Source of the DNA: a virus
Length of the DNA stretch: 22,747 nt
IMG/VR virus record: IMGVR_UViG_3300013131_000259
Span: 1 to 22,747 of that record
Reading direction: 5' to 3' (one strand)
Shown here piece after piece: positions 2,613 to 22,747 of the stretch. Below the pieces are notes generated by a model. It was given only the letters and a program-made list of their open reading frames with translations, was not told the DNA's origin and did no database searches. How positions within the stretch are numbered: the first letter of the stretch is position 1; every line of letters starts with the position of its first letter. The translations under genes and the position numbers were made by a program.

Positions 2613-2627
2613 GTCTTAACGTCCTAA

Positions 2628-5600: not shown

Positions 5601-8600
5601 CTTCGTAGAGTTACCAAGGGTATATGTGGCATCGACACCAGGAAACAATGAACCTGTGACTGAGAGGGATCCATTAACTGCAAGTTTGTCGGTTGTCGTC
5701 GTCGTTCCTATTCCGACATTGCCTCCTAATGGATTCAAAGAGAGGTCGTACGTCGCAGTTCCAAAATTCGGAACGTATCCTGATTGAATGTATGATGGGA
5801 ACCTGGCACTTAGATACGTGCCGAAAACGATACCGTTTCCTCCTCCACCTTCGACCGTCAGGTTGGCGTTGGTGCGACTAACCGTGTCGTTGGAAGATCC
5901 AAAGATGTGAAACTTGTTTGCAGGAGAGTTGGTTCCAACACCAACATTAGTACCATCATCGTAAATGACACTGCTGCCGACCGCGTTTGCACCCGTCCAT
6001 TTAGTGACATAGTTGGTGGCACCACTGCCTGAAACCAAAGTGACTTCGGATCCAAGCTTGCCGGCTTTCCAGACGTCAGATGCAGCGTCCCACGCAAGTG
6101 AACCTGTGACGCCTGTCGTCGTGTCTGCGACGTATATGCCGCCCGTGGAGGCCGGAGATGGGCCTGCATTAAGAAGGATGGCGTTGTCTTCTATCTCAAC
6201 GACCTGAGTGTTGACGATAAATTGAGTGCCATTGACGATCAAGTCACCTGTAACCGTGACGTCACCCAAGAAAGAACCGCTGCGAGCATATAGGTCTCTC
6301 CAACGATATGCAGTGGAGCCCAGATCATAAGTTACTGTAACTCCTGGTAGGATGGAACCCGTGACCGACAGGTTGCCTCCCGAGATAGCGAGACGATTGC
6401 CATTGGCATCAGCGGTGCCAATTCCCACGTTGCCTGACGCGTCGACTCTCAGTCTTTCAGATCCGTTCGTAGTGGCCGTTATTATGTTTGCACCGGTAGC
6501 CGTGAGAGCGAGAGTGGCACTTGTGGCCGTGAGGTTCACTCCTGCGGTGCCTGTGATGTTGCCGACAGATGTGAGATTGCCTGTCACATTGGCAGTACCG
6601 TCAAAGCTCTGACCCCAGAGTGTACGAGCATTCTGTAGAGCAGTTGCTGTGGCAGCGTTGCCTGTCGTGCTCTGGTTCAAGGTTGGAACATCGGCAGCTT
6701 GAATCGTAGACGACACAAAACGCGTGCCATCGCCTCGAAGATATTGACCCGATGTGGCCGTGTTGTTTATCCTGAAGCCCTGTCCTGAAGAAACGTTGAC
6801 GTCTCCCGCAACATGAAGAAGCTGTGAAGGATTAGTGATACCAATACCAACGCTTCCTCCGAGTGGGTTCAAAGACAAAGCATAAGTCGCAGTCGCGAAG
6901 TTAGAAACGAAGCCAGACTGAATGTAAGTGGGGAAGAGGGACGAAGAGTAGGTTCCAATGACCACTCCATTTCCTCCACCGCCCTCGATCAGGAGATTTG
7001 AGTTTGCACGATTCACGGTGTCGTTCGAGGATCCCATGATGTGAAACTTATTCGTAGGAGCCGAGGTGCCAACTCCGACTCTACCCAGGGAATTATCCCA
7101 TACGAACTGATTGGTTCCGCTGAGGACACCACCTGTTCCAGCCACTACGATTTGTCCCGCCAGGACATTACTGCCTGTGAGAGAACCTGAGATGTTGGTG
7201 ACCCTTAAGAGATTGCTTGTCTTGTCGAAAGTGAAATCGGCGTCAGCTCCAAAAGTACCACCGTCATTGAACTGAACCTGCGTCGTCGATCCTGCAACGT
7301 ATGTCGCACCTGATGCAGAGTTGGTTATTGTTACTGCCCCTGTCGAGCCTGTCGCGACGGTGATGTTACTTCCTGCGATGATATAAGAAGTACCATCAGA
7401 AAGTTTTGTTAACGAACCGCTGAGATTCGTTGCATGAACAGTCGACCATAGTTTAGAAGAAGAACCAAGACTGTACGAGTTAGAAGTGCCTGGTTGAAGG
7501 GAGCCCGTGACCGACAGGGATCCGTTTACGGATAGTTTGTCGCCTGGTGAGGAATTTCCTATTCCCACATTTCCGCTGTTGAGAACTGTTAATAGTTCGG
7601 AAGACGGATTGGTAACGTATAGAACCTTGGCGTTGGGATAAGTTATGGCCGATGAAAGTGTTGTTACTTTTATGTTCGTGTTGGTTCCATTTCCCTCAAG
7701 GAGAATCTCACCACCGGACTTGATTCCATATCCGTTCTCGAAGTAAGCATAACCGTTGTATATGTGTAGTTTCTGACCAGGCGTCGCAGTGCCGAGGCCG
7801 ACGTTTCCGCTGTTGTCCGCTGCGAGAGTCGTGACCGCGCCGGCGCTGTTTCTTATCCTAAGACCGCTCGCGGCATAGTCTATGTACATCAATCCGTCAG
7901 ATTGACGAGGATAAACCCAGTTTTCGTAAGTTCCTGAAGTATTTTTCGCGATGAAAGAAGCGTTGTTGTCGGTGGCAATCACGCCGCCTGTGCCGGCAAT
8001 CGTGAGTTTGTAACCGGGAGACGAAGTAGAAATTCCAAGTCTCGCATTGGAATTGTCCCAATAAAGATTGTTAGTTCCGCTGAGGACACCACCGGTTCCA
8101 GCCACTACGACTTGTCCCACAAGGACGTTACTGCCTGTGAGTGAACCCGAGATGTTGGTGACCCTCAGGAGATTACTTGTCTTGTCAAATGTGAAATCAG
8201 CGTCAGCTCCAAAAGTGCCGCCGTCATTGAATTGTACTTGGGTCGTCGAACCGGCCACATAGCTTGCACCGGACGCTGTCGAAGAAATTGTGACCGAACC
8301 GTTCGAACTAGTCATGATCTGCACGTTGGATCCACCGACTAGATACGACGTCCCATCGACCAATTTGGTGAGAGATCCGCTGAGACCCGCTGAGTGAACT
8401 GTGACACCTGTGAAAGTTGTGCCTGAGACGGTGGCAACGACGGAGTCATTTATAGACAACGTGTAGTTGCCGCCGGCACCGCCGTCAGTGGCCTTCAATC
8501 CGGTGCCAGGCGTGAACACGCGTTCAGACGACAAAGAAGCGTCTACTGCGAGAGTAAGATATTGGGCTGTCGTTGAAGCGAGACCCGACGTAGCAATGGT

Positions 8601-9482
8601 GACTGAACCGTTGGATCCCGTAGTGATGGCTATGTTGGAACCGGCTTGCAGGTAATTCGTAGTTCCATCTGACAGCTTCGTGAGAGAACCTGTCAATGCA
8701 TTTGCGACGACATTCGACCACCGCTTCGACGAAGTACCAAGAACGTAACTGACATTATTGTCGGCACTCGGATTCAAAGAACCCGATATGACTGCGTTTC
8801 CTGCGACGACAAACTTTGAGTCCATTTGCGTCGTACCGATGCCGACGTTGGTGCCATCGTCAAAGAGAACACTCGTTCCTAATGCGTTCGCGCCACTCCA
8901 TTTGACGACGTAGTTGTTCGTTCCACTGCCAGAAACAAGTGCAACTTCTGCTCCTGACCTGCCTGCTTTCCAAACGTCTGTCGTGGAATCCCATATGAGT
9001 GAACCCGTCGTGTTCGCTGTCGTGTCGGCGACGTATATTCCACCTGTCGGCAGGGGAGACGGTCCGGCGTTGAGAAGGACGATGTTGTCCTTTATGTTGA
9101 CGACCTCGGAGTTAACGATGGTCTGAGTTCCGGCGACCGTCAAGTTGCCTGTGATCGTAACATCACCGCCAAACGATCCAGAAGCACCAAAAATATTGCC
9201 TAGATAATCGACCGATGCGACGGATGTGTCTGAATTGTTCCTAATATCCAGTAATCTACCAGAAGGCAGAGGCACTCCTGCACGAACCACTAGTGTGGTG
9301 TCCGTAGACGTCGATGTTCCGGAGACAAAAAGTCGTGAAGTGGCGACCACCGGAGTTCCGACTCCCATGGAGCCTGTCGTCATCGCTGTCGCAAATGTTG
9401 CGTTGGCGGTGTTGTCGACTACGTTGATTGGATTGGAGCCTACGCTGAGGCCGTTCTTTGCATTGAAGTTATTGATCGCCAT
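2628..9482 (-). CDS. Giant modular fibre-like structural protein, 2284 aa
   Basis: ATG start at 9482, 37 nt after the stop of the preceding giant gene. The N-terminus (MAINNFNAKNGLSVG) resembles, from memory, the starts of cyanomyovirus fibre-like proteins. The body contains eight GSLTKLxDGTSYLIAG-type units, three VQFNDGGTFGA units, four NERxFTxGTGL...VVATVSGTTFTG units, two LLNAGPSP...GGIYVADTT modules (about 5935-6280 and 8835-9180), two GGGGNG...IQSG modules and many VGIGT motifs. It is Gly/Ser/Thr/Asn-rich, Cys-poor and has no membrane segment or signal peptide. The last 135 residues (2628-3040) are non-repetitive, end in VRLKQLA and may form the distal cap; there is no recognisable Peptidase_S74 chaperone tail. 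Such proteins normally form trimeric beta-helical fibres on the virion; attachment site and receptor are unknown. Confidence 0.88.
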   Translation of the reverse strand: MAINNFNAKNGLSVGSNPINVVDNTANATFATAMTTGSMGVGTPVVATSRLFVSGTSTSTDTTLVVRAGVPLPSGRLLDIRNNSDTSVASVDYLGNIFGASGSFGGDVTITGNLTVAGTQTIVNSEVVNIKDNIVLLNAGPSPLPTGGIYVADTTANTTGSLIWDSTTDVWKAGRSGAEVALVSGSGTNNYVVKWSGANALGTSVLFDDGTNVGIGTTQMDSKFVVAGNAVISGSLNPSADNNVSYVLGTSSKRWSNVVANALTGSLTKLSDGTTNYLQAGSNIAITTGSNGSVTIATSGLASTTAQYLTLAVDASLSSERVFTPGTGLKATDGGAGGNYTLSINDSVVATVSGTTFTGVTVHSAGLSGSLTKLVDGTSYLVGGSNVQIMTSSNGSVTISSTASGASYVAGSTTQVQFNDGGTFGADADFTFDKTSNLLRVTNISGSLTGSNVLVGQVVVAGTGGVLSGTNNLYWDNSNARLGISTSSPGYKLTIAGTGGVIATDNNASFIAKNTSGTYENWVYPRQSDGLMYIDYAASGLRIRNSAGAVTTLAADNSGNVGLGTATPGQKLHIYNGYAYFENGYGIKSGGEILLEGNGTNTNIKVTTLSSAITYPNAKVLYVTNPSSELLTVLNSGNVGIGNSSPGDKLSVNGSLSVTGSLQPGTSNSYSLGSSSKLWSTVHATNLSGSLTKLSDGTSYIIAGSNITVATGSTGAVTITNSASGATYVAGSTTQVQFNDGGTFGADADFTFDKTSNLLRVTNISGSLTGSNVLAGQIVVAGTGGVLSGTNQFVWDNSLGRVGVGTSAPTNKFHIMGSSNDTVNRANSNLLIEGGGGNGVVIGTYSSSLFPTYIQSGFVSNFATATYALSLNPLGGSVGIGITNPSQLLHVAGDVNVSSGQGFRINNTATSGQYLRGDGTRFVSSTIQAADVPTLNQSTTGNAATATALQNARTLWGQSFDGTANVTGNLTSVGNITGTAGVNLTATSATLALTATGANIITATTNGSERLRVDASGNVGIGTADANGNRLAISGGNLSVTGSILPGVTVTYDLGSTAYRWRDLYARSGSFLGDVTVTGDLIVNGTQFIVNTQVVEIEDNAILLNAGPSPASTGGIYVADTTTGVTGSLAWDAASDVWKAGKLGSEVTLVSGSGATNYVTKWTGANAVGSSVIYDDGTNVGVGTNSPANKFHIFGSSNDTVSRTNANLTVEGGGGNGIVFGTYLSARFPSYIQSGYVPNFGTATYDLSLNPLGGNVGIGTTTTTDKLAVNGSLSVTGSLFPGVDATYTLGNSTKRWSNIVSTALSGSHTKLSDGTTNYLQAGPNITITTGSNGAVTIEATMAGGTVSGTGTANYVAKFTGTNSIGNGIIYDNGTNVGIGTTVTNDKLAVNGSTSITGSLLPGVDVTYTLGNSTKRWSNVVSNALTGSLTKLSDGTTDYLQAGSNIALTTGSNGAVTIATTGVATSAAQYLTLAADASLTSERVFTPSTGLKATDGGAGGNYTLTINDSLVATVSGTTFTGVTKHNAGLSGSLTRLTDGTSYIVAGNNITATTGSNGSITLATTGLAPVSSAFLTVGNDATLTNERSLAVGTGILATDGGANSSYTLSINNSVVATVSGTTFTGITNHSAGLSGSLTRLTDGTSYIIAGSNVTVTTGSSGAVTVSAPNLAPSTSAFLTLGNDSTLSNERAFTVGTGLIGTDAGANSSYTLSINNSVVATVSGTTFTGVTNHSAGLSGSHTRLTDGTSYLIAGSNVSIVTGSNGAVTISNTASGATYVAGSDTQVQFNDGGTFGANSNFTYTKTSNLLRASNISGSLTGSNVLAGHVVVAGTGGLISGSNNFWWDDANSRVGIGTSSFSARLHVSGSSTSTNPTLTLRPGTALPSGGILDVQTSTGTSIVDIYETSIDSTIPFKGGNGSATAPTFSFTGGSTTGMYRRTTGQLLSFTVSGDQAFGVDTNGNFGINVTATSAPSGRLHVQGDAAAGSTNTLLVRHGAANGANLPVLDVQNSASTSLLFVSGSGNVGIGTTSINEKLVVQGNAGIVGELRLRQTGTSYITVANTTDTLQIGGQEVTGAANSRVRLKASFVELNATNVGIGSASTTDMLAVNGSMSVTGSLLPGLDDTYDLGSATKRWSNVYADNVTASGSLGPAYTSPSSTSGTTALFDTISVATDAAVYELMIIGNPNSSASSAYRDVIYGKVLIGTGNNGATVRNYIQFISESPAPRSLYGAAGNGPLTADVVYFQSGSEATDIDQGGTATLRVKIAGYAAGFVGNNTTVRLKQLA
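4230..5190 (-). repeat. 309-nt tandem protein-coding repeat in the 2284-aa fibre gene
   Basis: The codons for the DG of LTDGTS recur at 4252, 4561 and 4870, exactly 309 nt apart, and again at 5182 (312 nt, because that copy carries one extra codon, DGTTDY). Each 103-residue unit reads SAFLTLGNDATLxNER ... VVATVSGTTFTG ... GLSGSLTRLTDGTSY ... TGSNGAVTI. Protein identity between units is high, while the DNA differs at many third positions. Confidence 0.9.
7090..7320 (-). repeat. Duplicated ISGSLTGSNVLxGQ/VQFNDGG segment (pairs with about 8050-8265)
   Basis: This stretch and 8050-8265 encode almost the same protein segment (NISGSLTGSNVL then VQFNDGGTFGADADFTFDK). Their DNA is visibly closer to each other than either is to the other copies of this module, suggesting the youngest duplication among the dispersed modules. 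Confidence 0.75.
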
Positions 9483-9519
9483 GCCTTAGGTTCCCTATCC
9501 CCTAAACAGGTTGCGCTCA

Positions 9520-12500
9520 TCACGCCTTTGTAAGTATCGCAGTGACTTTCCAAACCGTAGAGTTTGTTGAGGCCGGTGTCACTTGTAGGTTAAAGAATCC
9601 TCCGGAGGGGTTAGAAACATCGAAAGTACCTGCAATTCCTCCGACAGTGACAGCTCCATACTCGGTGTGTGACGTCGTGGATCCGTTGTGAATCGCAAGT
9701 ATTTTCGCCGTGTGATACTTACCGCCGGTGGCATCGACGGCCTGCAGTACGAACTCGGCAGACCTAAAGATGTTCGAAGAGACAGCGAGAAGCGTTGTCG
9801 TCGATGTTGAGGTCGTCGTTGCGTTAGAAGTGACGACGGCAGCATCGGAACCGAATCCTATTTCACCACTGCCTGAAACATACATCAACGAAGTGCCGAT
9901 TGAATTCTGTACTTCGAATGTCTTCGTGCCTCCTGTCGGCGACACTGCACCTTCTTTGACCACCATCGTGGGTGTGGATGCGGTCGAGGAGCCAGAGACG
10001 AACAAGCGACCAGCGTAGGAATTTGTTCCGATGCTTACATTCTCACTGGCATTAGCTGTCAATACCGGTGTCGTGCCGTGGAACAATATAAAAATATTAC
10101 TACCTGCTCCGTACTTTATCGCTGTGTCGTTTGCGCCGAATGTTGTGTTATAGATCGGATAGAAACCAGATGTACCTGCAGAGTAGGTTCCTGCCGCAAT
10201 GTAGGACTCTAAACCGAAGTTGTAGCGAGTTACTATGGTTCCACTTACGGTCAGAGGAGCTGCGGGGGTCGTCGTTCCGATACCGACATACCTGTTCGTA
10301 TTGTCCCAAAAGAAACCGTTACTGCCGCTTAGGACACCGCCAGTTCCTGCCAGGACGACCTGTCCTGCGAGGACATTGCTGCTTGTTATGGATCCCGATA
10401 TGTTGAGGACCTTTAGCAGGTTGCCGGTCTTGGTGAATGTGAAGTTTGAATTTGCGCCGAAAGTTCCACCATCGTTGAATTGAACTTGCGTGTCACTTCC
10501 AGCAACGTATGTGGCTCCTGTCGCCGTACTTGTTATCGTGACTGCACCGGTGGAGCCTGTCGCGATAGATACGTTGTTTCCGGCGATGAGATAGGACGTT
10601 CCATCGACCAATTTTGTGAGAGAGCCGCTGAGGCCTGCGTTGTGCTTCGTGGCGCCTGTGAAAGTTGTTCCGGAAACCGTCGCGACAACGCTGTCACTGA
10701 TGGACAGTGTGTAGCTGCTGTTTGCCCCTGCATCGGTACCAATGAGACCATTACCTGCAGTGAAAGCCCTCTCGTTTGAGAGTGTAGCGTCATTACCTAG
10801 CGTCAAAAATGCTGAGGTTGAAGGTGCTAAGTTTGGTGCCGATACCGTGATCGCCCCTGTGGAACCTGTCGTGACAGTGACATTATTTCCTGCAATGAGG
10901 TAAGAAGTTCCATCTGTCAAACGTGTTAGTGAACCACTGAGACCGGCACTGTGGTTCGTAACTCCCGTGAATGTCGTGCCTGATACAGTTGCGACGATAG
11001 AATTGTTGATCGAGAGAGTGACAGATCCATTGGCACCGCCGTCATTCAACAGTATGCCTGTGCCGACAGCCAATGCTCTTTCGTTGGACAGTGTCGAATC
11101 ATTTCCTATGGTGACGAAAGCCGAAGTCGATGGAGCCAGGTTAGGTGCCGCAATGGTGACAGCGCCTGTCGAACCCGTTGCGATGGTCACATTTGATCCT
11201 GCTATCAAGTAGGATGTGCCATTTGACAGTTGTGTCAACGAACCTGTCAGGTTAGTCGCATAGACTGTAGACCACAGTTTTGAACTTGAGCCGAGACTGT
11301 ATGTGTTACTTACACCGGGTAGTAAGGAACCTGTAACAGACATCGAACCATTCACGGCCAACTTATCAGTCGTAACCGTAAGACCGATGCTGACGTTAGT
11401 TCCATCATCATATATGATGCTGTTACCTACAGCGTTCGAGCCGTTCCACTTGGTAACATAATTGTTCGTTCCACTTCCGGAGACGAGCGTTACCTCGGAT
11501 CCAAGCTTACCGGCTTTCCACTGGTCTGTTGTGCAATCCCATAACAACGAACCTGTCATCCCTGTTGTGGTATCAGCGACATAGATGCCGCCTGTCGCCG
11601 CGGGAGCAGGACCTGCGTTGACGAGAATGGCGTTGTCTTCTATCTCAACGACCTGAGTGTTGACAATAAATTGAGTGCCAGCTACTGTCAAGTCACCGGA
11701 AACTGTCAGGTCACCCGTAAACGAACCGCTGCGAGCGTACAAATCACGCCATCGATACACTGTGGAACCGAGGTCGTATGTAGCTGTAACACCTGGCAGG
11801 ACCGAGCCGGTGACAGACAGATTACCACCAGTTATTGCAAGCTTGTTGCCGTTGGTGTTTGTCGTACCTATGCCAACGTTTCCACCTGTGAAGTAGCTGT
11901 TCTCTGCGCGTGTACTTTGAACAGAAGACTTCCACCTACCACCGTCATCCCAAATAGTGACAGCGTTGGCGACATTGAAAGTTATTGTGCTGTTGCTACT
12001 GGCCCACCATCTCACTCCTGAAGCCGGCATCAGCTCGAAAATCTGACTGTCACCTGTCGCATTGTGGTGCACCCACGTGTTGCCGTCGTAGTATGTTCCA
12101 GCGCTATGAAAGACAGAAGTGTCCCACGGCATCAGACCAAACGCTGTCTTATTGACAGCCCTTCGTCCCACTATGGCAGAGTCATCGGATCCACCGGTGT
12201 CGATGGCAATGCCATTTATAGATGCAAAGTCGTTACCGATAGTCAATCGACTGTTGACTGTCGAAGTTCCAATACCGACGTATCCGTTGGTGTTGTTCCA
12301 GAAGAAATTGTTACTGCCGCTAAGCACACCGCCTGCCGCAGTGAGAACAACTTGTCCTGCAAGGACATTGCTTCCGGTCAGGGATCCTGATATGTTGGTA
12401 ACTTTCAACAAGTTACGTGTCTTGTCGAAGGTAAAGTCGGCATCGGCACCAAAAGTGCCACCGTCGTTAAACTGAATTTGTGTGTCACTGCCGGCCACAA

Positions 12501-15363
12501 ATGTGGCACCTGACGCCGTTGCAGATATGGTGACGGCCCCGCTGGAACCCGTGGTTATCTGAACGTTGTTACCCGCGATGAGAAAAGAAGTACCATCGAC
12601 CAATTTCGTGTGTGAACCACTGATCTGATCGATGTATCCTCGATACCATCTCGCTCCTGTAGAGCCGAGGTCGTAGAAGTTATTTTGACTCGGTTTGATC
12701 GTTCCCTGAAAGGTCGTTCCTGAGACGGTCGCGACGACTGAGTCGTTTATTGTCAACGTAACGGCGCCGCTCGTTCCACCGCCGAGAAGACCGTTGCCAG
12801 CAACGACGCTGTGAATCGTACCGCTGTTGATTGTTGCAAGTGACACTGAACCGTTTGACCCAGTTGTCACGGTCATGTTGCCACCGGCTACGATGTAACT
12901 CGTGCCGTCGATTAGTCGTGTTAGAGATCCGCTGAATCCTGTTCCTGCAAGAACATACGAGCCTGTAAGGGCACCTGTATTTTTATTGAACGTGAGGCCA
13001 GATGAAGCCCCAAAGATACCGCCGTCGTTGAATTGAACCTGTGTGTTGACCCCTGAAGCGATCGCGGCGATGGTAACGGCTCCGGACGATCCTGTCGAAA
13101 GAACTATGCTGTTTCCGCCAAGTAGATAATCCGATCCATTCGTAAGTTTGGTCAGAGAGCCGCTGAGACCGGTATTGAACTTCACGGCACCCGAGAATGT
13201 GGATCCTGTGAGTGTCGCGACGATCGAATCATTCACGGTCAAGGACACTGTTCCACTTGTGCCGCCGCCCAATAGACCATTGCCTGCCGTAACGCCGTGA
13301 ATCGTGCCGCTGTTGATAGTCGCCAATGTGACAGATCCGTTCGAACCTGTGACGACCGACATGTTACCGCCGGCGATGAGATAAGAAGAACCATCGACAA
13401 GGCGAGTTAGGGATCCGCTGAATCCTGTCCCAGCGAGGACGTAAGCACCTGTTAAAGCTCCGGTATTTTTATTGAAAGTTAGATTTGAAGAAGCACCAAA
13501 TGTGCCTCCATCATTGAATTGAACCTGCGTATTAGAACCTGCAACGTATGTTGCTCCGGTCGCAGCATTTGTGACTGTCACGGAACCGTTGGATCCCGTA
13601 GCTATTTGAATATTCGAACCTGCAACGAGATAGGAAGTTCCATCGACAAGTTTTGTCAAAGAACCGCTGATCTGATCGATGTATCCTCGATACCACCTTG
13701 CACCTGTCGAACCAAGGTCGTAGAAGTTATTTTGATTAGGCTTAATTGTTCCACGGAAAGTGGTTCCTGAAACCGTCGCGACGACAGAGTCGTTGATGGC
13801 CAGAGTAACGGTGCCGCTCGTTCCACCGCCGAGGAGGCCGTTACCGGCTGTGACATTGTGGATCGTTCCGCTGTTGATCGTTGCCAACGTGATGGCGCCA
13901 TTGGAACCGGTAACGACGGACATGTTGCCGCCGGCGATGAGGTAAGACGTGCCGTCAAGGAGTTTAGTGAGAGAACCACTAAGACTATTGACGTACAGGC
14001 TTCTCCAACTCTTGGAGATCGAACCCAGGTCGTAACTTAGGTTGACACCTGGTTCGACGGTACCTGTGACCGCCAGAAGTCCTGTCGACAAGAATCGACC
14101 GAATTCAGTACCGGCAGTGCCTTGGCCGAACACAATGCTTTTGCCTGAATATGTGCCGATTCTCGTGTCTGAGTTATAAGTCGAGAGAGTTCCGATGTTG
14201 TAGACAGAGACAGAACCATTGACGCTTAAGCCGCTGTCAAAGTAACCCGAACCTTGCACCTGTAACTTGTACGAAAGACTCGTCGAGGTTCCAATTCCAA
14301 CGTTAGTGCCGTCGTCATACAAGATGCTGTTGGTGAGTCCGTTACCACTTGAAAACTTTGAGACGTAGTTCGTCGTTCCACTGCCAGTAACGACGTTGCT
14401 GCCACTCATCAACGTTCCGAAGTTAGTCCACGTCGGCGTTCCTGAACCAGCAGACTGTAACAGTTGTCCCGAGTTTCCAGCGGTGGTCGATTTCAAGTAA
14501 CCTGACGCGTCGAAGTACCCCACACCTCCCTGGGTGCCTCCAGAAATATTATTTGAAGGAGTACCTGTGATGGTTATCGTTTTATTGTAGAGATTATCTG
14601 TTGAACCCGTCGTGACGATGTTAATTTCATTGCCGATGAATCCAGCACGCCATCGATCAGTCAGAGAGTCCCATATCATCGATCCCGTGGTGTTGGCCGT
14701 CGTATCGGCAACATAGACACCACCGAAATTGAGAGGAGCAGGTCCTGCGTTGAGGAGGACAGCGTTGTCTTTTATGTTGACTATCTCGGAGTTGATGATG
14801 GAAGAAGTTCCCATCACCGTCAGGTCACCCATGATGGTCAAGTCACCTGAGAATGAGCCGGTTCGAGCATATAGGTCTCGCCACGACTTCGATGTAGAAC
14901 CTAGGTCATATGTTAAAGTAGAACCGGGAAACAGTGACCCCGTAAAATCAGATTGACCCTGCACCTGAAGTGTTGAGGTGCCGTTGAATGTGGATTTGCC
15001 TATGGAAAGACTGGACGTCGCTTTGTCGAACTGAAAGTTCACATTTGAACCAAAACTACCGGCGTCATTAAACTGAACCCATTTGTTCTGACCGGAGACA
15101 GTCGCAGCGTCGGTCGTCGAAATGGTGATCGATCCGTTTGAACCGGTGACAAGTTGAATGGCACCTGACGACAAAAGGAATGGTGTACCATCGGCAAGTC
15201 TCGTCAAGGACCCTGTCAATTGACTGCTGTACACCATTCTCCACGGCTTCGTGACAGATCCTAGATCGAAAGCTCCCGAAGAGCCAGGTGTGATAGAACC
15301 TGTCACGGCGAAAGAACCGGACAGGCTTACATCATTTACTAGATTTGGGGAGTCTATTATCAC
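9520..15363 (-). CDS. Giant modular fibre-like structural protein, 1947 aa
   Basis: GTG start at 15363, chosen because GAGGG lies 5 nt upstream. It is the first gene of the fibre operon, after a terminator (15494-15514) and a roughly 130-nt leader. Ten GSLTKLxDGTSYLIAG-type units, five VQFNDGG-type units, two LLNAGPAP modules (about 11385-11735 and 14290-14860) and two copies of a GARWYRGYIDQISGS module (about 12640-12830 and 13660-13870) make up most of it. The final 105 residues (9520-9840: SAEFVLQAVDATGGKYHTAK ... TPASTNSTVWKVTAILTKA) resemble a beta-sandwich end domain that I recall from marine myovirus structural proteins, and they differ from the end of the 2284-aa paralogue. Role as virion fibre is inferred from composition and modules. 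Confidence 0.88.
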   Translation of the reverse strand: MIIDSPNLVNDVSLSGSFAVTGSITPGSSGAFDLGSVTKPWRMVYSSQLTGSLTRLADGTPFLLSSGAIQLVTGSNGSITISTTDAATVSGQNKWVQFNDAGSFGSNVNFQFDKATSSLSIGKSTFNGTSTLQVQGQSDFTGSLFPGSTLTYDLGSTSKSWRDLYARTGSFSGDLTIMGDLTVMGTSSIINSEIVNIKDNAVLLNAGPAPLNFGGVYVADTTANTTGSMIWDSLTDRWRAGFIGNEINIVTTGSTDNLYNKTITITGTPSNNISGGTQGGVGYFDASGYLKSTTAGNSGQLLQSAGSGTPTWTNFGTLMSGSNVVTGSGTTNYVSKFSSGNGLTNSILYDDGTNVGIGTSTSLSYKLQVQGSGYFDSGLSVNGSVSVYNIGTLSTYNSDTRIGTYSGKSIVFGQGTAGTEFGRFLSTGLLAVTGTVEPGVNLSYDLGSISKSWRSLYVNSLSGSLTKLLDGTSYLIAGGNMSVVTGSNGAITLATINSGTIHNVTAGNGLLGGGTSGTVTLAINDSVVATVSGTTFRGTIKPNQNNFYDLGSTGARWYRGYIDQISGSLTKLVDGTSYLVAGSNIQIATGSNGSVTVTNAATGATYVAGSNTQVQFNDGGTFGASSNLTFNKNTGALTGAYVLAGTGFSGSLTRLVDGSSYLIAGGNMSVVTGSNGSVTLATINSGTIHGVTAGNGLLGGGTSGTVSLTVNDSIVATLTGSTFSGAVKFNTGLSGSLTKLTNGSDYLLGGNSIVLSTGSSGAVTIAAIASGVNTQVQFNDGGIFGASSGLTFNKNTGALTGSYVLAGTGFSGSLTRLIDGTSYIVAGGNMTVTTGSNGSVSLATINSGTIHSVVAGNGLLGGGTSGAVTLTINDSVVATVSGTTFQGTIKPSQNNFYDLGSTGARWYRGYIDQISGSHTKLVDGTSFLIAGNNVQITTGSSGAVTISATASGATFVAGSDTQIQFNDGGTFGADADFTFDKTRNLLKVTNISGSLTGSNVLAGQVVLTAAGGVLSGSNNFFWNNTNGYVGIGTSTVNSRLTIGNDFASINGIAIDTGGSDDSAIVGRRAVNKTAFGLMPWDTSVFHSAGTYYDGNTWVHHNATGDSQIFELMPASGVRWWASSNSTITFNVANAVTIWDDGGRWKSSVQSTRAENSYFTGGNVGIGTTNTNGNKLAITGGNLSVTGSVLPGVTATYDLGSTVYRWRDLYARSGSFTGDLTVSGDLTVAGTQFIVNTQVVEIEDNAILVNAGPAPAATGGIYVADTTTGMTGSLLWDCTTDQWKAGKLGSEVTLVSGSGTNNYVTKWNGSNAVGNSIIYDDGTNVSIGLTVTTDKLAVNGSMSVTGSLLPGVSNTYSLGSSSKLWSTVYATNLTGSLTQLSNGTSYLIAGSNVTIATGSTGAVTIAAPNLAPSTSAFVTIGNDSTLSNERALAVGTGILLNDGGANGSVTLSINNSIVATVSGTTFTGVTNHSAGLSGSLTRLTDGTSYLIAGNNVTVTTGSTGAITVSAPNLAPSTSAFLTLGNDATLSNERAFTAGNGLIGTDAGANSSYTLSISDSVVATVSGTTFTGATKHNAGLSGSLTKLVDGTSYLIAGNNVSIATGSTGAVTITSTATGATYVAGSDTQVQFNDGGTFGANSNFTFTKTGNLLKVLNISGSITSSNVLAGQVVLAGTGGVLSGSNGFFWDNTNRYVGIGTTTPAAPLTVSGTIVTRYNFGLESYIAAGTYSAGTSGFYPIYNTTFGANDTAIKYGAGSNIFILFHGTTPVLTANASENVSIGTNSYAGRLFVSGSSTASTPTMVVKEGAVSPTGGTKTFEVQNSIGTSLMYVSGSGEIGFGSDAAVVTSNATTTSTSTTTLLAVSSNIFRSAEFVLQAVDATGGKYHTAKILAIHNGSTTSHTEYGAVTVGGIAGTFDVSNPSGGFFNLQVTPASTNSTVWKVTAILTKA
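10590..11230 (-). repeat. 309-nt tandem protein-coding repeat in the 1947-aa fibre gene
   Basis: The same 103-residue unit as at 4230-5190: the equivalent codons lie at 10601, 10910 and 11219, again exactly 309 nt apart. The first unit carries HNAGLSGSLTKLVDGTS, the next HSAGLSGSLTRLTDGTS; the third boundary is the variant NLTGSLTQLSNGTS. Confidence 0.88.
12640..12830 (-). repeat. GARWYRGYIDQISGS module, copy 1 (copy 2 at about 13660-13870)
   Basis: Both copies encode FYDLGSTGARWYRGYIDQIS followed, upstream in the protein, by GNGLLGGGTSG. The DNA is partly conserved (the run GATCTGATCGATGTATCCTC on the plus strand occurs in both) but has many third-position differences elsewhere. Confidence 0.8.
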
Positions 15364-17303: not shown

Positions 17304-18233
17304 TTACTTGATGAGACCGGCCAGCTTCTGCCAACGTTCGAGGAGAACGTCGCCAGAATTGCTTGTTGACTCTTCTTTCTTTTTAGCCTTAGCAGACTTC
17401 TCGGAACCCGAGACGGCCCGCTTCACGACAGAAGAGAAGGGAGGCATTACGTCAACCTTGCCCGAGTCGAGAGCTTTAGCTGCTGTCGGAACTTCTTTCG
17501 GATCGATCACAGGCATCTGCACTCTGTCAGGTGCCCATTCTGGCACTTCTTGGCTCATTGCGCTGACGTTAGACGACATCTTTTCCAAGGCATCTTCAAC
17601 AGATCCAAACTTCTCTTCAAAAAGTCCTTTGACTTCCTCAGCGGAGTAATACTGAGTTCCTTTGTCGAGGGCTTTCTGTAAAGCCGCCTTGACATTTTCT
17701 GGGGTGTAATCGGCGATGGCACCTTTTCCTGGGTTTCCCTTCTTCTTGTTGAAGACCCCCTTCGTGAGAACATTGAGTACTCCAACCAATTCTTTTCCAG
17801 GAAGTTCAGCTCCAAATCCAGAAACATTCGTCTCTGGGTTCACGAGAATCGCAGCACTCCATCTGTGATGTCCGTCCATTATGTGATTGTCACTGGACAC
17901 TATGCAACCGAGGTTTGTGTCCATCTTTCCGGCCAACATAGAGATTGCCATTCCGACCGTATTATCTATTCTCATCGTAGTCTGAGACGGCTTAAGATCA
18001 GCAGCAGGCCACGTCTTGTTTGAGACGGCTATCTTGTCGTCGTTCTTGTCCTTGTCTAATTCTCCCGACTTGACTATGACTTTTGCGACAGCAGGATCGA
18101 CCTTGTCTAATTCTGTCGGAGCAACTTTCTCTTGTGGGACCTCGAGGGCACTGTCCTTGTCCTCACTCAACATCTTCCTGACTTCGCTTGCAATGTGCTT
18201 CCTAAGCTGCTGTTCGTTGAGAATCTTCTTCAT
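17304..18233 (-). CDS. ParB/sulfiredoxin-like domain protein with scaffold-type C-terminal tag (309 aa)
   Basis: ATG at 18233, one nucleotide after the previous stop, with GGAAGAGGG upstream. Residues 1-22 form a helical lead (LRKHIASEVRKMLSE), residues 25-75 a Lys/Glu-rich linker, and residues 80-130 carry a ParB-like signature: KPSQTTMRID, then IMDGHHRWSAA (DGHHRW at 120-125), the motif that marks the nucleotide/phosphate site in ParB and sulfiredoxin folds. ParB-like nuclease domains occur in many myoviruses without a proven role. The protein ends ERWQKLAGLIK (299-309), nearly identical to the end of the scaffold protein (DRWARLAGIVK). Incorporation into the prohead is therefore a reasonable inference. 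Enzymatic activity (nuclease or CTPase) is not shown by the sequence. Domain call fairly sure; function open. Confidence 0.75.
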   Translation of the reverse strand: MKKILNEQQLRKHIASEVRKMLSEDKDSALEVPQEKVAPTELDKVDPAVAKVIVKSGELDKDKNDDKIAVSNKTWPAADLKPSQTTMRIDNTVGMAISMLAGKMDTNLGCIVSSDNHIMDGHHRWSAAILVNPETNVSGFGAELPGKELVGVLNVLTKGVFNKKKGNPGKGAIADYTPENVKAALQKALDKGTQYYSAEEVKGLFEEKFGSVEDALEKMSSNVSAMSQEVPEWAPDRVQMPVIDPKEVPTAAKALDSGKVDVMPPFSSVVKRAVSGSEKSAKAKKKEESTSNSGDVLLERWQKLAGLIK

Positions 18234-18234
18234 T

Positions 18235-18561
18235 TCACTTGCCCTCTTCCTTGCCTGTTACCTTCTTCAATACGTTCATCACCTTGACGGTGTCCTCGGG
18301 TGAAGCCTCCATCAGCTTCACGAACACGTCGCCGAGAACGGCGTTGTGTCCTGCACCCCTGTTGCCGCCCTTCGCTGCCCTCACGGCCTCGGAGAACTTA
18401 CCGGGATCGACGCCGAGCGTCTTGGCGATGGTCTTCACGTCGAGCGTTCCTTTTGTATCAGCCTGCTCCTTGCCTGCCTTGACGGGAGCGTCGGCCTCTT
18501 CACGGAGAGCCAAAAGTTCCTTCTGAATGATCTTCCTGAGGTGCGATTCTAAAAGCTTCAT
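18235..18561 (-). CDS. Unknown phage protein (108 aa), possible internal head protein
   Basis: A GTG at 18582 would add seven residues, but the ATG at 18561 is preferred because it gives MKLLESHLRKIIQKELL, matching the beginning of the downstream ParB-like protein (MKKILNEQQLRKHIASEVRK). Neither start has a clear ribosome binding site. After a charged linker (residues 20-40) a helical domain follows (LGVDPGKFSEAVRAAKGGNR, then GDVFVKLMEASPEDTVKVMN). The helical lead ends in LRE, the kind of L-x-E site cut by T4 prohead protease, so the lead could be a capsid-targeting sequence; this is inference. The next gene starts one nucleotide downstream, so the two are co-expressed. Confidence 0.75.
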   Translation of the reverse strand: MKLLESHLRKIIQKELLALREEADAPVKAGKEQADTKGTLDVKTIAKTLGVDPGKFSEAVRAAKGGNRGAGHNAVLGDVFVKLMEASPEDTVKVMNVLKKVTGKEEGK

Positions 18562-18573
18562 GCGATTAACTAT

Positions 18574-18607
18574 ACGATACACTACCGCATTTAAAAGCTA
18601 GTATCGT
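18574..18607. promoter_or_regulatory. Inverted repeat between divergent genes
   Basis: ACGATAC (18574-18580) and GTATCGT (18601-18607) are perfect 7-nt inverted arms 20 nt apart, lying between the start of the 108-aa gene (minus) and the GTG start of the only plus-strand gene at 18611. Either an operator for divergent promoters or a weak transcript hairpin; I see no convincing -35/-10 pair. Confidence 0.35.
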
Positions 18608-18610
18608 CAC

Positions 18611-19069
18611 GTGAACATATTTGTCCTGTCGACGGATCCCGAAGAAGCTGCACGGATGCAGTGTGACAAACACTGTCTGAAAATGATACTGGAATCTGGT
18701 CAGATGCTGTGTGCCGCCCATGAGCCCAACACTGCCCCCTGGAAGCGGACCCACTACAACCATCCCTGCACCGTGTGGACTCGTGCATCCACTGAGAACT
18801 ACAAGTGGTTGGCGACCCACGGTCTCGTCCTCTGCGACGAGTACACGAAGCGGTACGGTAAGGTCCACGCGGCCGAGGAGGTGTTGGTGTGGTGTGCTGA
18901 GAATATTCCGGTGAATGTTCCCGTTGGTCCACTCACACCATTTGTCGTGTCAATTAAAGACCCCAAGTACCACCTCGGTGATCCCGTCTCATCCTACCGG
19001 GCTTACTACAAGGGAGACAAAGTGAGATTTGCGAGGTGGAGGTACTGCGATCCACCTTCTTGGTGGTGA
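18611..19069 (+). CDS. Conserved phage protein of unknown function, MNIFVL...DKH family (152 aa)
   Basis: The only gene on the plus strand. GTG start at 18611 with no evident ribosome binding site. The pattern MNIFVLSTDPEEAARMQCDK-H, then KMILESGQMLCAAH, NHPCTVWTRASTENYKWL and SYRAYYKGDK belongs to a family I recall as common in T4-like and other aquatic phages, annotated without function. Conserved-looking His, Asp, Cys and Trp residues (DKH near 19, NHPC around 50, W) suggest a catalytic or metal-binding fold, but no named enzyme signature is present. It ends exactly where the convergent gene ends (stop at 19067-19069, neighbour's stop at 19070-19072). Its lone orientation suggests a cargo gene acquired separately. 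Confidence 0.8.
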   Translation: MNIFVLSTDPEEAARMQCDKHCLKMILESGQMLCAAHEPNTAPWKRTHYNHPCTVWTRASTENYKWLATHGLVLCDEYTKRYGKVHAAEEVLVWCAENIPVNVPVGPLTPFVVSIKDPKYHLGDPVSSYRAYYKGDKVRFARWRYCDPPSWW

Positions 19070-19267
19070 TCAGTCGTCCCTGTAGGCACCACCGCGTTTC
19101 CGACGCTTACAGTAGTTCTTCTGGGAGAACCCCTTGGGGTGGGAGCAGTCGATGGACCGCTTGTACTTGAGCTCCAACGAGACGCCATACCCTTGCGGGG
19201 TTTGTTGGCCACCTTGGTCGAGGCACTCCCTGACGAGGGTGCGGAGCAGTTCCAGGGTGTCGTCCAT
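19070..19267 (-). CDS. Small Cys-containing basic protein (65 aa)
   Basis: ATG at 19267, five nucleotides after the endonuclease stop, without a clear ribosome binding site, so probably translated by coupling. The C-terminal half reads DCSHPKGFSQKNYCKRRKRG, a CxHPKGFSQKxxC pattern that I recall from short segments of aquatic phage proteins; two Cys and a His could bind a metal. The Lys/Arg-rich end could bind nucleic acid. The N-terminal half (MDDTLELLRTLVRECLDQGG) is an amphipathic helix. Function unknown. Confidence 0.65.
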   Translation of the reverse strand: MDDTLELLRTLVRECLDQGGQQTPQGYGVSLELKYKRSIDCSHPKGFSQKNYCKRRKRGGAYRDD

Positions 19268-19271
19268 GGAG

Positions 19272-20213
19272 TTAAGTATTCAATAATTCGTCGTAATTGG
19301 AGCCTTGTTGCCACTCACGATATTTCCATCCATTTTTCTGACAGAAGGTGAGTGCCGCCTCCCTCTTCGCTGCGTTGACTGGCGTGTTCGACAGGGACGG
19401 TGGCTTCACCTCCACGAGGACGTCGCTGTCCTCAAACACCACAAGGAAGTCGGGTATATATCGACGCGTCTCACCGTCGATGGTGTAGGGAATCGACAGT
19501 GGTTCATAACTCCATGAAGTGACTCGGACGTCGGAGTCGAGGAGGACCATCAGTTGGCGTTCCCAGGAGGAACGGTAGTTACACGTCTTCCCCGTCTTTG
19601 GAGAGGTGTACTGACCTGCGGACCACTCGAAACCTCCGTCGAGGTAGCGTTGTGTGATGGCCTGTGAGATCTTTTCGTTACGTTCGGTAAAGTCGTACTG
19701 TCCGTCTGCGAAGCGTTGTTTGTAGGTTTCAGAAGCTTTAACGTGGGCCTCCTCTAATATTCCATTCTTCCATAGTCGTTTTGTGTGATCAGAGAATTTC
19801 TGTTTCTCCTCAGATGTCATTGCGGCATAAGTTGCAGAAGATGATGCGGTTCTTCTAGCTTCGAACTCTGGTGTTCTATTGCTGTTCAAGGATTCTCCTC
19901 TCTTTGCTGCAATATCAGGATGTCGTGCCATCCATGCAGTCATGTTTGCTCGGTTTTTCTCACCGATGCGCCTCTTCTCGTCTTCAGATTTGATCCGGCC
20001 CTTTGCAGAATGACCCTTGATAAATGTCGTGTAATTCCTCATAGCAACATTCCATGAAGTATTTCGACCACAACCGCAGGCACAAAGTGGTTCACTACCG
20101 TTGTGCTGCCACTTTAGGACATACTCTTTCGCCGTCATCTTGTGGCTTCTCATGTGTCGAAAGACAGACTCGATGGAGTCGAAATCCGTGTTGCACTCTC
20201 TGCAAGTTTCCAT
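19272..20213 (-). CDS. Free-standing homing-type endonuclease: zinc fingers plus PD-(D/E)XK nuclease (313 aa)
   Basis: ATG at 20213. Domains in order: a C2H2-like finger (Cys4, Cys7, His20, His24) followed by MTAKEYVLKW, resembling MucR-type fingers; a CxCGCG...FIKGH zinc site (44-68) typical of phage homing enzymes; short NUMOD3-like DNA-binding helices (SEDEKRRIGE at about 76; KISQAITQRY at about 181); and a C-terminal nuclease with YRSSWE (Glu218), IPDF (Asp255) and VEVK (Glu268, Lys270), the PD-(D/E)XK pattern. No GIY-YIG or HNH motif is present. Such genes cut alleles lacking them and spread between phages; insertion directly after the capsid gene, a conserved target, fits. Codon choice is more A/T-ending than in the capsid gene, consistent with recent transfer. 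Class fairly sure; target site unknown. Confidence 0.82.
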   Translation of the reverse strand: METCRECNTDFDSIESVFRHMRSHKMTAKEYVLKWQHNGSEPLCACGCGRNTSWNVAMRNYTTFIKGHSAKGRIKSEDEKRRIGEKNRANMTAWMARHPDIAAKRGESLNSNRTPEFEARRTASSSATYAAMTSEEKQKFSDHTKRLWKNGILEEAHVKASETYKQRFADGQYDFTERNEKISQAITQRYLDGGFEWSAGQYTSPKTGKTCNYRSSWERQLMVLLDSDVRVTSWSYEPLSIPYTIDGETRRYIPDFLVVFEDSDVLVEVKPPSLSNTPVNAAKREAALTFCQKNGWKYREWQQGSNYDELLNT

Positions 20214-20250
20214 ATGTATATTATATGTATGTCAACTGACAAATGTAAAC
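20214..20250 (-). promoter_or_regulatory. AT-rich promoter candidate for the endonuclease gene
   Basis: The minus strand carries TTGACATACATATAATATAC just before the ATG, and there is no ribosome binding site. TTGACA and TATAAT are only 4 nt apart, so this is not a sigma-70 pair; TATAATAT loosely resembles the T4 late consensus TATAAATA but is almost adjacent to the start. An independent promoter is expected because a terminator lies upstream. Confidence 0.3.
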
Positions 20251-20275
20251 AAAGAAGGCCGCCTTTCGGCGGCCT
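20242..20275 (-). terminator. Intrinsic terminator after the major capsid gene
   Basis: Minus-strand AGGCCGCC, GAAA loop, GGCGGCCT (20256-20275) is a perfect GC-rich 8-bp stem with a stable tetraloop followed by TCTTTGTTT. It lies 34 nt after the capsid stop and should end the highly expressed head transcript. Confidence 0.92.
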
Positions 20276-20282
20276 CCAATGC

Positions 20283-20300
20283 GTTAACTATTCAGTTAAC
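20283..20300. other. Small AT-rich hairpin before the capsid terminator
   Basis: GTTAACT (20283-20289) and AGTTAAC (20294-20300) pair perfectly around a 4-nt loop, between the capsid stop codon and the main terminator. It may protect the 3' end of the capsid transcript or simply assist termination. Confidence 0.5.
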
Positions 20301-20309
20301 ATTCATGTG

Positions 20310-22190
20310 CTATATGACGTTCATGTCGAGAACCGTGACTGTCCCGTAAAAATCACTGCGAACCGTCTTCTTGCCGTAGCGGGTCATTACGCCTTTCCTT
20401 GGCGTGAAGTCTTCAGGTGCGAAGATCGTCGGTGTCACGATGAGTGGCACGTATGGAGCGTAGACGTAGCCCGTCTCGAGGTAGGAGCCGCCCTTGTAGC
20501 CGATGAGGATCTTGTTACGTGAGAAGTAAGGATCCTTGTAGACCGTGAAGCGGTTCGAGAGGGTGCCGATTGCCTCTGCACCGATGGTGTAGGGCGATGC
20601 GACCTGTCCCTCGCCGTCCATCGAGAACTTCGGCTTGTAGAGGACCGAGGCTTCGAGGATGGTGCAGACGTCCGGGCCGGTGACGAGGAAGTTCGCCGAG
20701 CCGCGGAGTGTCTTGCGGTGGATGGTGTTGGCGACGTCGATGACGGTCTCGATGAGGGTCTCGTACCACTCACGGACTGTGCCCGTGAACTGCGGTCCGA
20801 TCTGCAGCGAGTCGGTCAGGTTGACGCGAGCGCCGTTCGTCTTGTTGACGAAGCGACCAGGTGAGCGGCTCCAGTAGTAGTTGGCGCCGTTGGCCTGCGA
20901 CACGAGGTCGTTGAGGATCTCACGGTCGATCTCGAGGGCGATCTGCTCCGAGAGGATCGAGGTGAGCTCCACTTCAGCGTCCATCGAGTGATAGGCGTTG
21001 AGGTCCTGTGCGAGCTCGGGGCTCCACTTGGCGCGAAGCTTGCGGGTCTCAGCTGTGATGCTGATGGCCTCGATCTTGATGTCGATCTCGGGGATGACCG
21101 GCGAAGGCGTCGCACCGAAGTCAGACTCGAACGAAGGAACGGTGACTGTCGTGCCCGTGTTGCTGTCGACGGTGAGACCGGTCGAGAGGACGCAGGTGAC
21201 GCGGCCCGAGCCAGCTGTGAGTGTCGAGAGAGCGTTGGCTCCCTTGAGGACGAGCTGAACGTGGGTTCCGTTGAGGGCATTCGGTGTGAAGTAAGGTGCT
21301 GTCGAAGCCGAGAAGTTACCACGCTTGGTGAGGCGGCGAAGGTTGAGGACGCCTGTTCCACCCTGGTATGTCTCGCCCCAGGCTGTGGCGTTGGCGCCGA
21401 AGCCCGAGAAGACCGCGATCTGCTCGACGGCCGTCAGGTCTGTTCCGCTCGGGAGTGCCGAGGTTGGGACGTAGACGAAGATCGTGTCGAGTGTGCTTGT
21501 CGAGAGGTCAGTCTCAACCTGCGAGTCGAAGTCCATGAAGCGAGCGTTGGAGCCCGAGAACTGAGCTGCCGAGCCGAGGACCATGCCTGCCGACCAGGTG
21601 TCGCCGTTGACGCCGCCGTACGAACCTGAAGCCACTGTGCCAGCGGCGAAGTTGATGGCGACCGAGCCTGTGACGCGGCTGTAGCCGGTGTTGACGAGGT
21701 CATACATACCACCAGTTGCGAGCGATCCGCTCTGGACGCCCTTGCCGGTTGGGTTGTTGTAGAGCGACTGACCACGTGTGTATGTCGACTCTGTCGTCTG
21801 GCCTGCGTGTACACCAACGTTTGAACCGTAGGTGTAGTCGAGGTAGAAGATGAGGCCTGAGGGGAGGCTCATCGGCTGGATCGAGACGAGCTCGTTGGCC
21901 ACGAGGCCGCCGAAGACTCTGCGAACGATCGGGAAGGCGATGTTCGAGAAGCCCTGGATCTGACCCGAACCTGCAAGGTTACCGCCACCCGTCGAGAGGG
22001 TGTTGGCTTCCTTGAGGACCTGGGCAGCCTGGTTCTCGAGGAGCTGCGACATAACCTCACGCTTCGTGCCCTCGAGCCCGCGGAGGAGGCCTGTGCGGCT
22101 CCACTTCTCTGTGAGTCGTGCGCGCTCGGCGCCGACGTGCTTCTCTCTGATTCCCTGAGCGAGCTGCTCAAGACTGAAATGCTTTGACAT
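20310..22190 (-). CDS. gp23: Major capsid protein, T4 gp23-like (626 aa)
   Basis: ATG at 22190 with AGGAG 9 nt upstream. Capsid signatures in order: PIVRRVFGGLVANELVSIQP (87-106) followed by MSLPSGLIF, KWSPELAQDL (388-397), ALEIDREIL (418-426), GYKGGSYLETGYVYAPYVPL and KGVMTRYGKK near the end. The N-terminal LLENQAAQVLKE (50-61) followed by ANTLSTGGG fits the prohead-protease cut that removes about 65 residues in T4, here predicted after Glu61. T4 gp23 has 521 residues; the extra roughly 100 lie mainly at 170-360, between the N-arm and the KWSPELAQ block, and may form a surface insertion domain. Codons are strongly C/G-ending, as expected for the most abundant virion protein. It follows the scaffold gene by 35 nt. 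Confidence 0.96.
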   Translation of the reverse strand: MSKHFSLEQLAQGIREKHVGAERARLTEKWSRTGLLRGLEGTKREVMSQLLENQAAQVLKEANTLSTGGGNLAGSGQIQGFSNIAFPIVRRVFGGLVANELVSIQPMSLPSGLIFYLDYTYGSNVGVHAGQTTESTYTRGQSLYNNPTGKGVQSGSLATGGMYDLVNTGYSRVTGSVAINFAAGTVASGSYGGVNGDTWSAGMVLGSAAQFSGSNARFMDFDSQVETDLSTSTLDTIFVYVPTSALPSGTDLTAVEQIAVFSGFGANATAWGETYQGGTGVLNLRRLTKRGNFSASTAPYFTPNALNGTHVQLVLKGANALSTLTAGSGRVTCVLSTGLTVDSNTGTTVTVPSFESDFGATPSPVIPEIDIKIEAISITAETRKLRAKWSPELAQDLNAYHSMDAEVELTSILSEQIALEIDREILNDLVSQANGANYYWSRSPGRFVNKTNGARVNLTDSLQIGPQFTGTVREWYETLIETVIDVANTIHRKTLRGSANFLVTGPDVCTILEASVLYKPKFSMDGEGQVASPYTIGAEAIGTLSNRFTVYKDPYFSRNKILIGYKGGSYLETGYVYAPYVPLIVTPTIFAPEDFTPRKGVMTRYGKKTVRSDFYGTVTVLDMNVI

Positions 22191-22225
22191 GATTGATTTC
22201 TCCTAATTGAGTTGGTTTGATTGAA

Positions 22226-22747
22226 TCACTTGACGATTCCGGCGAGACGTGCCCAACGGTCAGCCTCGAAGCCCTCGTTGAGGGTGTTGGTGGCCGATGC
22301 GGGACGTGCCGGACGCGACGATGAACCGATGACTCCACGATCAGCGGACTCCGTCAACTTACCCGTGGATGCACTCGAGAGTGTCTTCACGAGGCTCTCG
22401 TACACGAGCTTCACCTCACGCTCATTCTTCGCCTCGTCGAGTCTCTCGATGACCTCGGCCTTCTGGCGCTTGGTGAGGGACTCGTTCTGGAGAAGCTTGT
22501 TCGTGAAGAGCAGCTTCGCGTTGAACAGATTCGTTTCTGCCAACTTGTTGCGGAGATTGGTCTCAACCGCTGACTTTCTGGATCCGCCATTGAGGACGGC
22601 TCCCTTGCGGGTTGCCTCTGCGAGCATACCCTTGAGTCGTGTCGTGCGAGCGACTGACTCGTTGAACTTGGTTGCATAGAAGTTGTAGGCTTCCTTGAGC
22701 TTGGACTGGTTCCTCTTCGCCTGCTTCTTGTCGGCGGGCTTCTTCGC
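22226..22747 (-). CDS. gp22: Prohead scaffold protein, T4 gp22-like (C-terminal part only)
   Basis: The frame is open from the right edge; about 173 codons are visible and the start lies outside. It sits immediately upstream of the capsid gene, the position of gene 22 in T4. The visible part is Lys/Ala-rich and helical (KKQAKRNQSKLKEAYNFYAT), then carries NLFNAKLLFTNKLLQNESLT and REVKLVYESLVKTL, the pattern I associate with gp22-type core proteins. The internal core is assembled with the capsid shell and then degraded by the head protease. It ends DRWARLAGIVK, a tag shared with the ParB-like protein at 17304, preceded by LNE, a possible protease site. Family assignment rests on context plus these helices. 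Confidence 0.75.
   Translation of the reverse strand, partial: AKKPADKKQAKRNQSKLKEAYNFYATKFNESVARTTRLKGMLAEATRKGAVLNGGSRKSAVETNLRNKLAETNLFNAKLLFTNKLLQNESLTKRQKAEVIERLDEAKNEREVKLVYESLVKTLSSASTGKLTESADRGVIGSSSRPARPASATNTLNEGFEADRWARLAGIVK

Follow-up and report, generated by a model that had tools for sequence, protein, structure and literature searches.

Why do two proteins with no other resemblance, encoded on one phage fragment, end in much the same eleven residues? The window, that is, the whole stretch of 22,747 nucleotides analysed here, is a 22.7-kb fragment of a T4-like phage, as indicated by its match to the Gp23 major capsid protein (MCP) and its source in a virus record. An earlier note on this DNA had described the ending as an exact terminal tag common to a scaffold and a ParB-like protein, and had suggested that it directs or docks proteins to the inside of the prohead and could belong to a cargo-loading system by which a ParB-like protein is delivered with the genome.

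Two similar C-termini in a T4-like head-gene region

The features of the window that bear on this question are as follows.

20310..22190 (-): major capsid protein, Gp23 family (PF07068, E 4.5e-76)
22226..22747 (-): scaffold-position protein, C-terminal part, directly upstream of the MCP gene, its 5' end lost at the window edge
22229..22261 (-): scaffold C-terminal tag DRWARLAGIVK, the last 11 aa
22274..22282 (-): putative prohead-protease site L-N-E of the scaffold, its Glu at -7 from the tag Trp
17304..18233 (-): ParB/sulfiredoxin-fold protein of 309 aa, putative prohead cargo (PHROG_2859, E 3.9e-11; AF2; Foldseek)
17307..17339 (-): ParB-like C-terminal tag ERWQKLAGLIK, the last 11 aa, DNA checked
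17337..17345 (-): ParB-like L-L-E, putative protease site, directly before Arg-Trp
18162..18233 (-): N-terminal helix motif MKKILNEQQLRKHIASEVRKMLSE of the ParB-like protein, with LSE at its end (AF2 helix 7-27)
18235..18582 (-): ORF of 115 aa, upstream of the ParB-like gene; N-terminal motif MKLLESHLRKIIQKELLALREE present, C-terminal tag absent

ORF calls and a reading of the DNA bore out both ORFs and both endings: the scaffold-position ORF terminates in LNEGFEADRWARLAGIVK and the ParB-like protein in LLERWQKLAGLIK. The two 11-mers are identical at 6/11 positions and positive at 10/11, so that "exact" overstates the likeness, although a shared, similar ending at the extreme C-terminus stands, and outside the tags the two proteins gave no significant alignment. 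The L-x-E sites noted ahead of both tags are present (LNE and LLE) at unequal spacing, the ParB-like Glu being residue 1 of the 11-mer and the scaffold Glu lying 7 residues before the Trp; cleavage at the putative LLE site would take a 10-residue tail off the ParB-like protein. Among the neighbouring ORFs, the 115-aa ORF, whose product is possibly a second internal protein, has a syntenic relative at 247616-247960 in the 298-kb record G001. A pyrimidine-dimer glycosylase-like ORF lies at 18611-19069(+), on the strand opposite to the head genes (PF03013, E 5e-7; PHROG_624), and an endonuclease-like ORF with a zinc-finger-like start and a TnsA-like N-terminal domain (PF08722, E 2.8e-15) immediately follows the MCP gene at 19272-20213(-). 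Three very long ORFs (>870, 2284 and 1947 aa) at 3-15363(-) contain many similar repeats as well as a collagen-like GxTGATG stretch, and are likely fibre proteins.

The scaffold is so named for its place immediately upstream of the Gp23 MCP gene, a family match being absent (no PHROG match was obtained). The gene order protease-(core)-scaffold-MCP was found in G001-G004, G008, W01, W02 and L012, and complete scaffold-position relatives are 540-700 aa long, encoded between core-protein genes and the MCP gene. Shortly upstream of the scaffold gene, G002 (128337-128555), G003 (175728-175955) and G004 (33596-33820) encode a small, very basic protein of 72-75 aa, whose counterpart in Microcystis phage Mel-JY01 (22183-22410) is annotated as ribosomal protein S21. 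Profile comparison (hhalign) of the scaffold with T4/cyanophage gp22 was not significant, either at full length (E 0.25, probability 0.2%) or for the C-terminal region (E 0.012, probability 3.7%, with a plausible register LTxxQKxxV). We considered the T4 gp22 and gp21 tails as instances of the same tag, given a similar helical register (Y-x-x-V-A-x-x-F in VYAKVASRF), and dropped this reading because the profiles were not significant and no other protein of T4 or Syn10 shares the gp22 tail; from the latter result it follows that tail sharing may be specific to the present phage group.

The AF2 model of the ParB-like protein (pLDDT 87) consists of an N-terminal helix (7-27), a globular core, a low-confidence linker (286-294) and a final helix (294-308) formed by the tag; in an alignment of relatives, too, the core (with DGHHRW) and the tail are conserved and the linker between them varies. 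By predicted fold the core is a member of the ParB/sulfiredoxin superfamily (Foldseek: BFVD ParB/Sulfiredoxin, E 9.5e-10; PDB ParB-N domain, E 4e-3, probability 0.99). The protein has no ParB Pfam or PHROG match, and its helical C-terminal half is unlike solved ParB (TMq about 0.22). HTH and dimerisation domains of a chromosome-partition ParB were not recognised in it. The name "ParB-like" holds for the fold, but nothing points to a role in partition, and we infer that this is probably an injected or internal nucleotide-binding protein rather than a partition protein. Its N-terminal segment is a candidate targeting segment.

Distribution of the tail among related phages

We searched relatives of the window phage for tagged C-termini, as the earlier note had suggested, and found the tail on several unrelated families. 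Pattern scans of IMG/VR returned at least 228 loci, and in 212/228 of the matches listed the tag lay in frame at an ORF end. Nearly all tagged ORFs among these matches encode the protein that precedes the MCP (beginning, for example, MSKQLYEEALADVKK), and we therefore regard the tag primarily as the C-terminus of the scaffold itself, present on almost all scaffolds of a large T4-like group. Seven related records were examined nearly whole, with ORFs predicted mechanically: G001 (298 kb), G003 (289 kb), G002 (273 kb), G004 (202 kb), G008 (69 kb), Flavobacterium phage immuto (160 kb) and Mel-JY01 (190 kb). The pattern [RK]W..LAG occurred 17 times in their 1,966 predicted ORFs, 15/17 within the last 18 residues.

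When each genome was scanned with its own scaffold tail, cargo tails scored 28-46, above the internal null windows of the same genome (null maximum across all genomes, 34). A family-blind, all-versus-all comparison of C-termini, which counted pairs between genes without any other common 6-mer, returned tagged pairs among the leading or only matches in G001, G002, G003, G004, G013 and G014, with at most a few other matches per genome. A chance resemblance between two C-termini might be suspected from the window, where only two proteins have the tag; the census refutes it, since the tag recurs on many families and is enriched at C-termini only, and we give this explanation practically no weight.

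Besides the scaffold, the carriers include two ParB-like paralogues (A and B); a P-loop protein with GPPAAGKG, poorly predicted in structure (pLDDT 55), in which the tag is kept in all sampled relatives; and a HAD/PNKP-like protein (PHROG_415; DUF2608), for which a search for relatives returned the query alone. A 968-aa protein at L276:4974-7880(+) has a FliG_C domain (PF01706, E 5e-15) and ends in the tag LDRWHLLAGIKK; from its sequence it is a candidate for an injected protein aimed at the flagellar motor. Further carriers are proteins of 418-1040 aa without family matches. A protein of 135-148 aa, encoded between the protease and the scaffold, ends in DLFEGAGNWAALAF or similar (the variant LFEG..NWAxLAF), or, in another lineage, in AWKKLAGT or HWKKLAGN (WKKLAG[TN]); it is likely a core protein bearing a variant of the tag. 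Proteins of ~310-330 aa ending RKWRKMSGI (G003:64178-65113(+)) and RRMRKMAGI (G013:158255-159256(-)) possibly carry a degenerate tag on a further family.

None of the tagged proteins is recognisably a replication, metabolic or tail protein, and a spread of the tag over many clearly non-virion proteins, which would speak against a head signal, did not occur. The view of the ending as a tag of ParB-like cargo is less well borne out: the tag belongs primarily to the scaffold, occurs on other proteins besides the ParB-like one, and some ParB-like relatives lack it. In the cultured relatives immuto and Mel-JY01, the scaffold-tail scan found the tag on the scaffold alone; a paper on Baltic Flavobacterium phages, consulted for virion proteomics, does not mention the immuto phages.

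Parallel tail change, putative protease sites and a proposed route into the prohead

In some lineages the ParB-like gene adjoins the head genes: it lies between the protease and scaffold genes in L012, L016 and L017, directly precedes the scaffold in L342, and lies between the protease and the core protein in L023 and L025. In L012 and L016 the scaffold ends in RMQKLAGIK and the ParB-like protein in HMMQVRAGIIK or HMMKVRAGIVK, so that Met replaces Trp in both tails on the same contig. A Phe/Phe likeness (scaffold DRFKTLVNFNR in G022, ParB-like VKRFNIFK in the relatives L026/L027) is only suggestive because the two tails are on different (sister) contigs. Four ParB-like proteins (L011, L014, L015 and L310) are untagged despite a Trp-tailed scaffold; the tag is therefore not obligatory, and in these relatives the N-terminal motif alone may suffice for targeting.

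The N-terminal region of the window MCP contains LTEKWSRTGLL and LLE/LKE sites, and its EKWSRTGLL (22083-22109(-)) resembles the tag; among the T4-like MCPs examined, those extended at the N-terminus have a [KNQ]W motif close to the beginning (NKWKPLLEG in T4). We left the MCP motif (EKWxRTGLL) out of the system because the MCP Trp is kept where the scaffold Trp changes to Met (L012).

At the DNA level the two window tags agree at 24/36 nucleotides including the stop, which could be taken to favour a likeness that has no function in itself and stems from recent 3'-end recombination or a common domain, or else a tail that serves generally in degradation or stability. As a sign of recent copying between the two genes, however, this figure is uninformative (third positions agree at 7/12). 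Against such explanations, the tag is found on many unrelated families across divergent phages, is kept while the linker ahead of it is unconserved, and changed in parallel on scaffold and cargo in one lineage; we consider them very unlikely.

Putative protease sites keep set distances ahead of the tag. The nearest [LIVM]-x-E had its Glu at -7/-8 from the Trp in 106/167 unique scaffold tails, compared with 12.5% at random anchors, and 43/167 had no L-x-E within 14 residues of the Trp. In most other cargo tails the Glu of a hydrophobic-x-E lies directly before R/K-W (LLE, IVE, LVE, MVE and others). From these positions, the tag is probably clipped by the prohead protease. Many cargo proteins also have the N-terminal helix motif MKxTxxQLRxLIxxE: it was present in 28/42 tagged non-scaffold proteins (>=200 aa) compared with 13% of long ORFs, and [LI]FE followed within 80 residues in 12/42 compared with 4.7%, these figures being approximate since scaffolds still account for two or more of the 42. 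In the whole records G001-G004 (L059-L103, L123-L133), ~8-22 short proteins per genome have the N-terminal motif MKITKRQLRRIIREEYSRLKRQG in common, often in tandem and most without the C-terminal tag; they possibly form an expanded family, or the motif is a further targeting signal, located at the N-terminus.

Taken together, a signal that targets or docks proteins to the inside of the prohead, as first suggested, is the best explanation and our leading hypothesis, given the occurrence of the tail on the scaffold, on a core variant and on a few other proteins per phage, with L-x-E nearby. We put at roughly 70% the probability that unrelated proteins have taken over the conserved tail with which the scaffold ends, and that it acts on them as a C-terminal capsid-targeting (cargo-loading) sequence. 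A short helix, [RKN]-W-x-x-L-A-[GF], would be common to the scaffold, the core protein and the cargo; the tail itself is read directly from the sequences and the helix is predicted. Cargo tails would then occupy the binding site of the scaffold tail, on the inner face of the coat or on the scaffold core, and co-assemble into the prohead; the parallel tail changes in one lineage point to such a common receptor. The inner face of the coat is our first candidate because herpesvirus scaffold C-termini bind the coat protein and are clipped there (PMC12474303), and the scaffold core is the other because T4 internal proteins interact with the core (PMC9026906). The prohead protease would cut at L-x-E just before the helix while the scaffold is cleared, and the freed cargo domain would remain in the head and be injected with the DNA, as the conserved L-x-E placement and the analogy with T4 internal proteins suggest. 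A wider claim is that of scaffold mimicry, in which uncultured T4-like phages, as a large group, would use the C-terminal tail of the scaffold as a transferable code for loading cargo. Injected proteins, in a set that varies (ParB-fold, P-loop, HAD-like, FliG_C and others), would have the tail appended and would lose it to the prohead protease; we hold this to be slightly better than an even bet.

The tag might instead be a docking site for the protease itself, an exosite peptide recruiting it to the adjoining L-x-E, with localisation left to something else, for instance the N-terminal motif. The fixed distance from L-x-E to tag in scaffold, core protein and cargo would suit this arrangement, as would the many cargo proteins whose N-terminal motif could target them. 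Yet that distance is 7-8 in scaffolds as against 2 in cargo, 43 of the 167 scaffold tails keep the tag without a near L-x-E, such a C-terminus is missing from the MCP, which is presumably cut as well, and the T4 L/I-x-E is reported to be a surprisingly short cleavage determinant (PMC9026906). We judge protease docking unlikely. A basic, Trp-containing helix could also be an amphipathic membrane anchor that tethers core proteins to the inner membrane, the place at which T4-type proheads begin to form, and proheads of T4 and SPN3US form at or stay on the membrane according to the literature. The hydrophobic moment of the tag is unexceptional, however (68th-81st percentile of C-terminal 11-mers), that of the core-protein and Met variants is still lower, and the core variant NWAALAF has no basic face; on the hydrophobic moment we rejected this reading, to which we assign only a slight probability.

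Comparison with known systems

In engineered P22, a scaffold-derived segment carries fused cargo inside. That fusion is artificial, whereas the phage case would be natural and involve ~10 residues; if the capsid-targeting reading is true, it would provide a natural handle of about this length for loading proteins into T4-type heads. The head cargo and injected proteins of an uncultured phage could likewise be read from protein C-termini by motif search. In the literature on capsid targeting, scaffold C-termini and C-terminal propeptides (subscription journals being little covered) we did not find a shared tail described, and our leading hypothesis, based on sequence comparison, is that capsid-targeting sequences here take a new form, located at the C-terminus and derived from the scaffold.

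The closest parallels differ in instructive ways. The capsid-targeting sequence (CTS) of T4 IPI, IPII, IPIII and Alt is a short terminal peptide, carried by unrelated internal proteins, with an adjacent L/I-x-E protease site, and it targets proteins to the prohead core (PMC9026906). The window tags resemble it in adjoining putative L-x-E sites (LNE, LLE), and the proteins that carry them, candidates for a place inside the head, are unrelated to one another, but the T4 CTS is N-terminal and the tag lies at the extreme C-terminus; the T4 CTS is not described as the scaffold's own end (PMC9026906), whereas the tag is of the same kind as the scaffold tail; and many cargo proteins here have an N-terminal motif besides the C-terminal tag. 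As known head targeting of the T4 type uses N-terminal peptides, a scaffold-like C-terminal peptide would tell what the signal mimics. C-terminal processing has precedents: T4 Alt is cut at both termini (PMC9026906), and a core-targeting role was proposed from mutants for the C-terminal propeptide of the SPN3US protease gp245 (PMC7411985). The C-terminal propeptides of T4 gp21, Alt and gp245 likewise lie next to a prohead-protease site, but they are not described as common to a scaffold and multiple cargo proteins, and we claim no sequence similarity to them. The C-terminus of the herpesvirus scaffold binds the major capsid protein, is cut by the maturational protease at the M site and recurs on the protease-scaffold precursor (PMC12474303). 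The two herpesvirus proteins have the tail in common because their genes overlap, whereas the phage tag, known here from sequence, sits on unrelated proteins. Encapsulin cargo-loading peptides are short, usually C-terminal and sufficient for loading into an HK97-fold shell (PMC7355545), but unlike the proposed phage case, in which the MCP is Gp23, encapsulin loading involves no scaffold and no protease cleavage. If our reading is true, the phage tail would form a parallel to both the herpesvirus scaffold tails and the encapsulin loading peptides.
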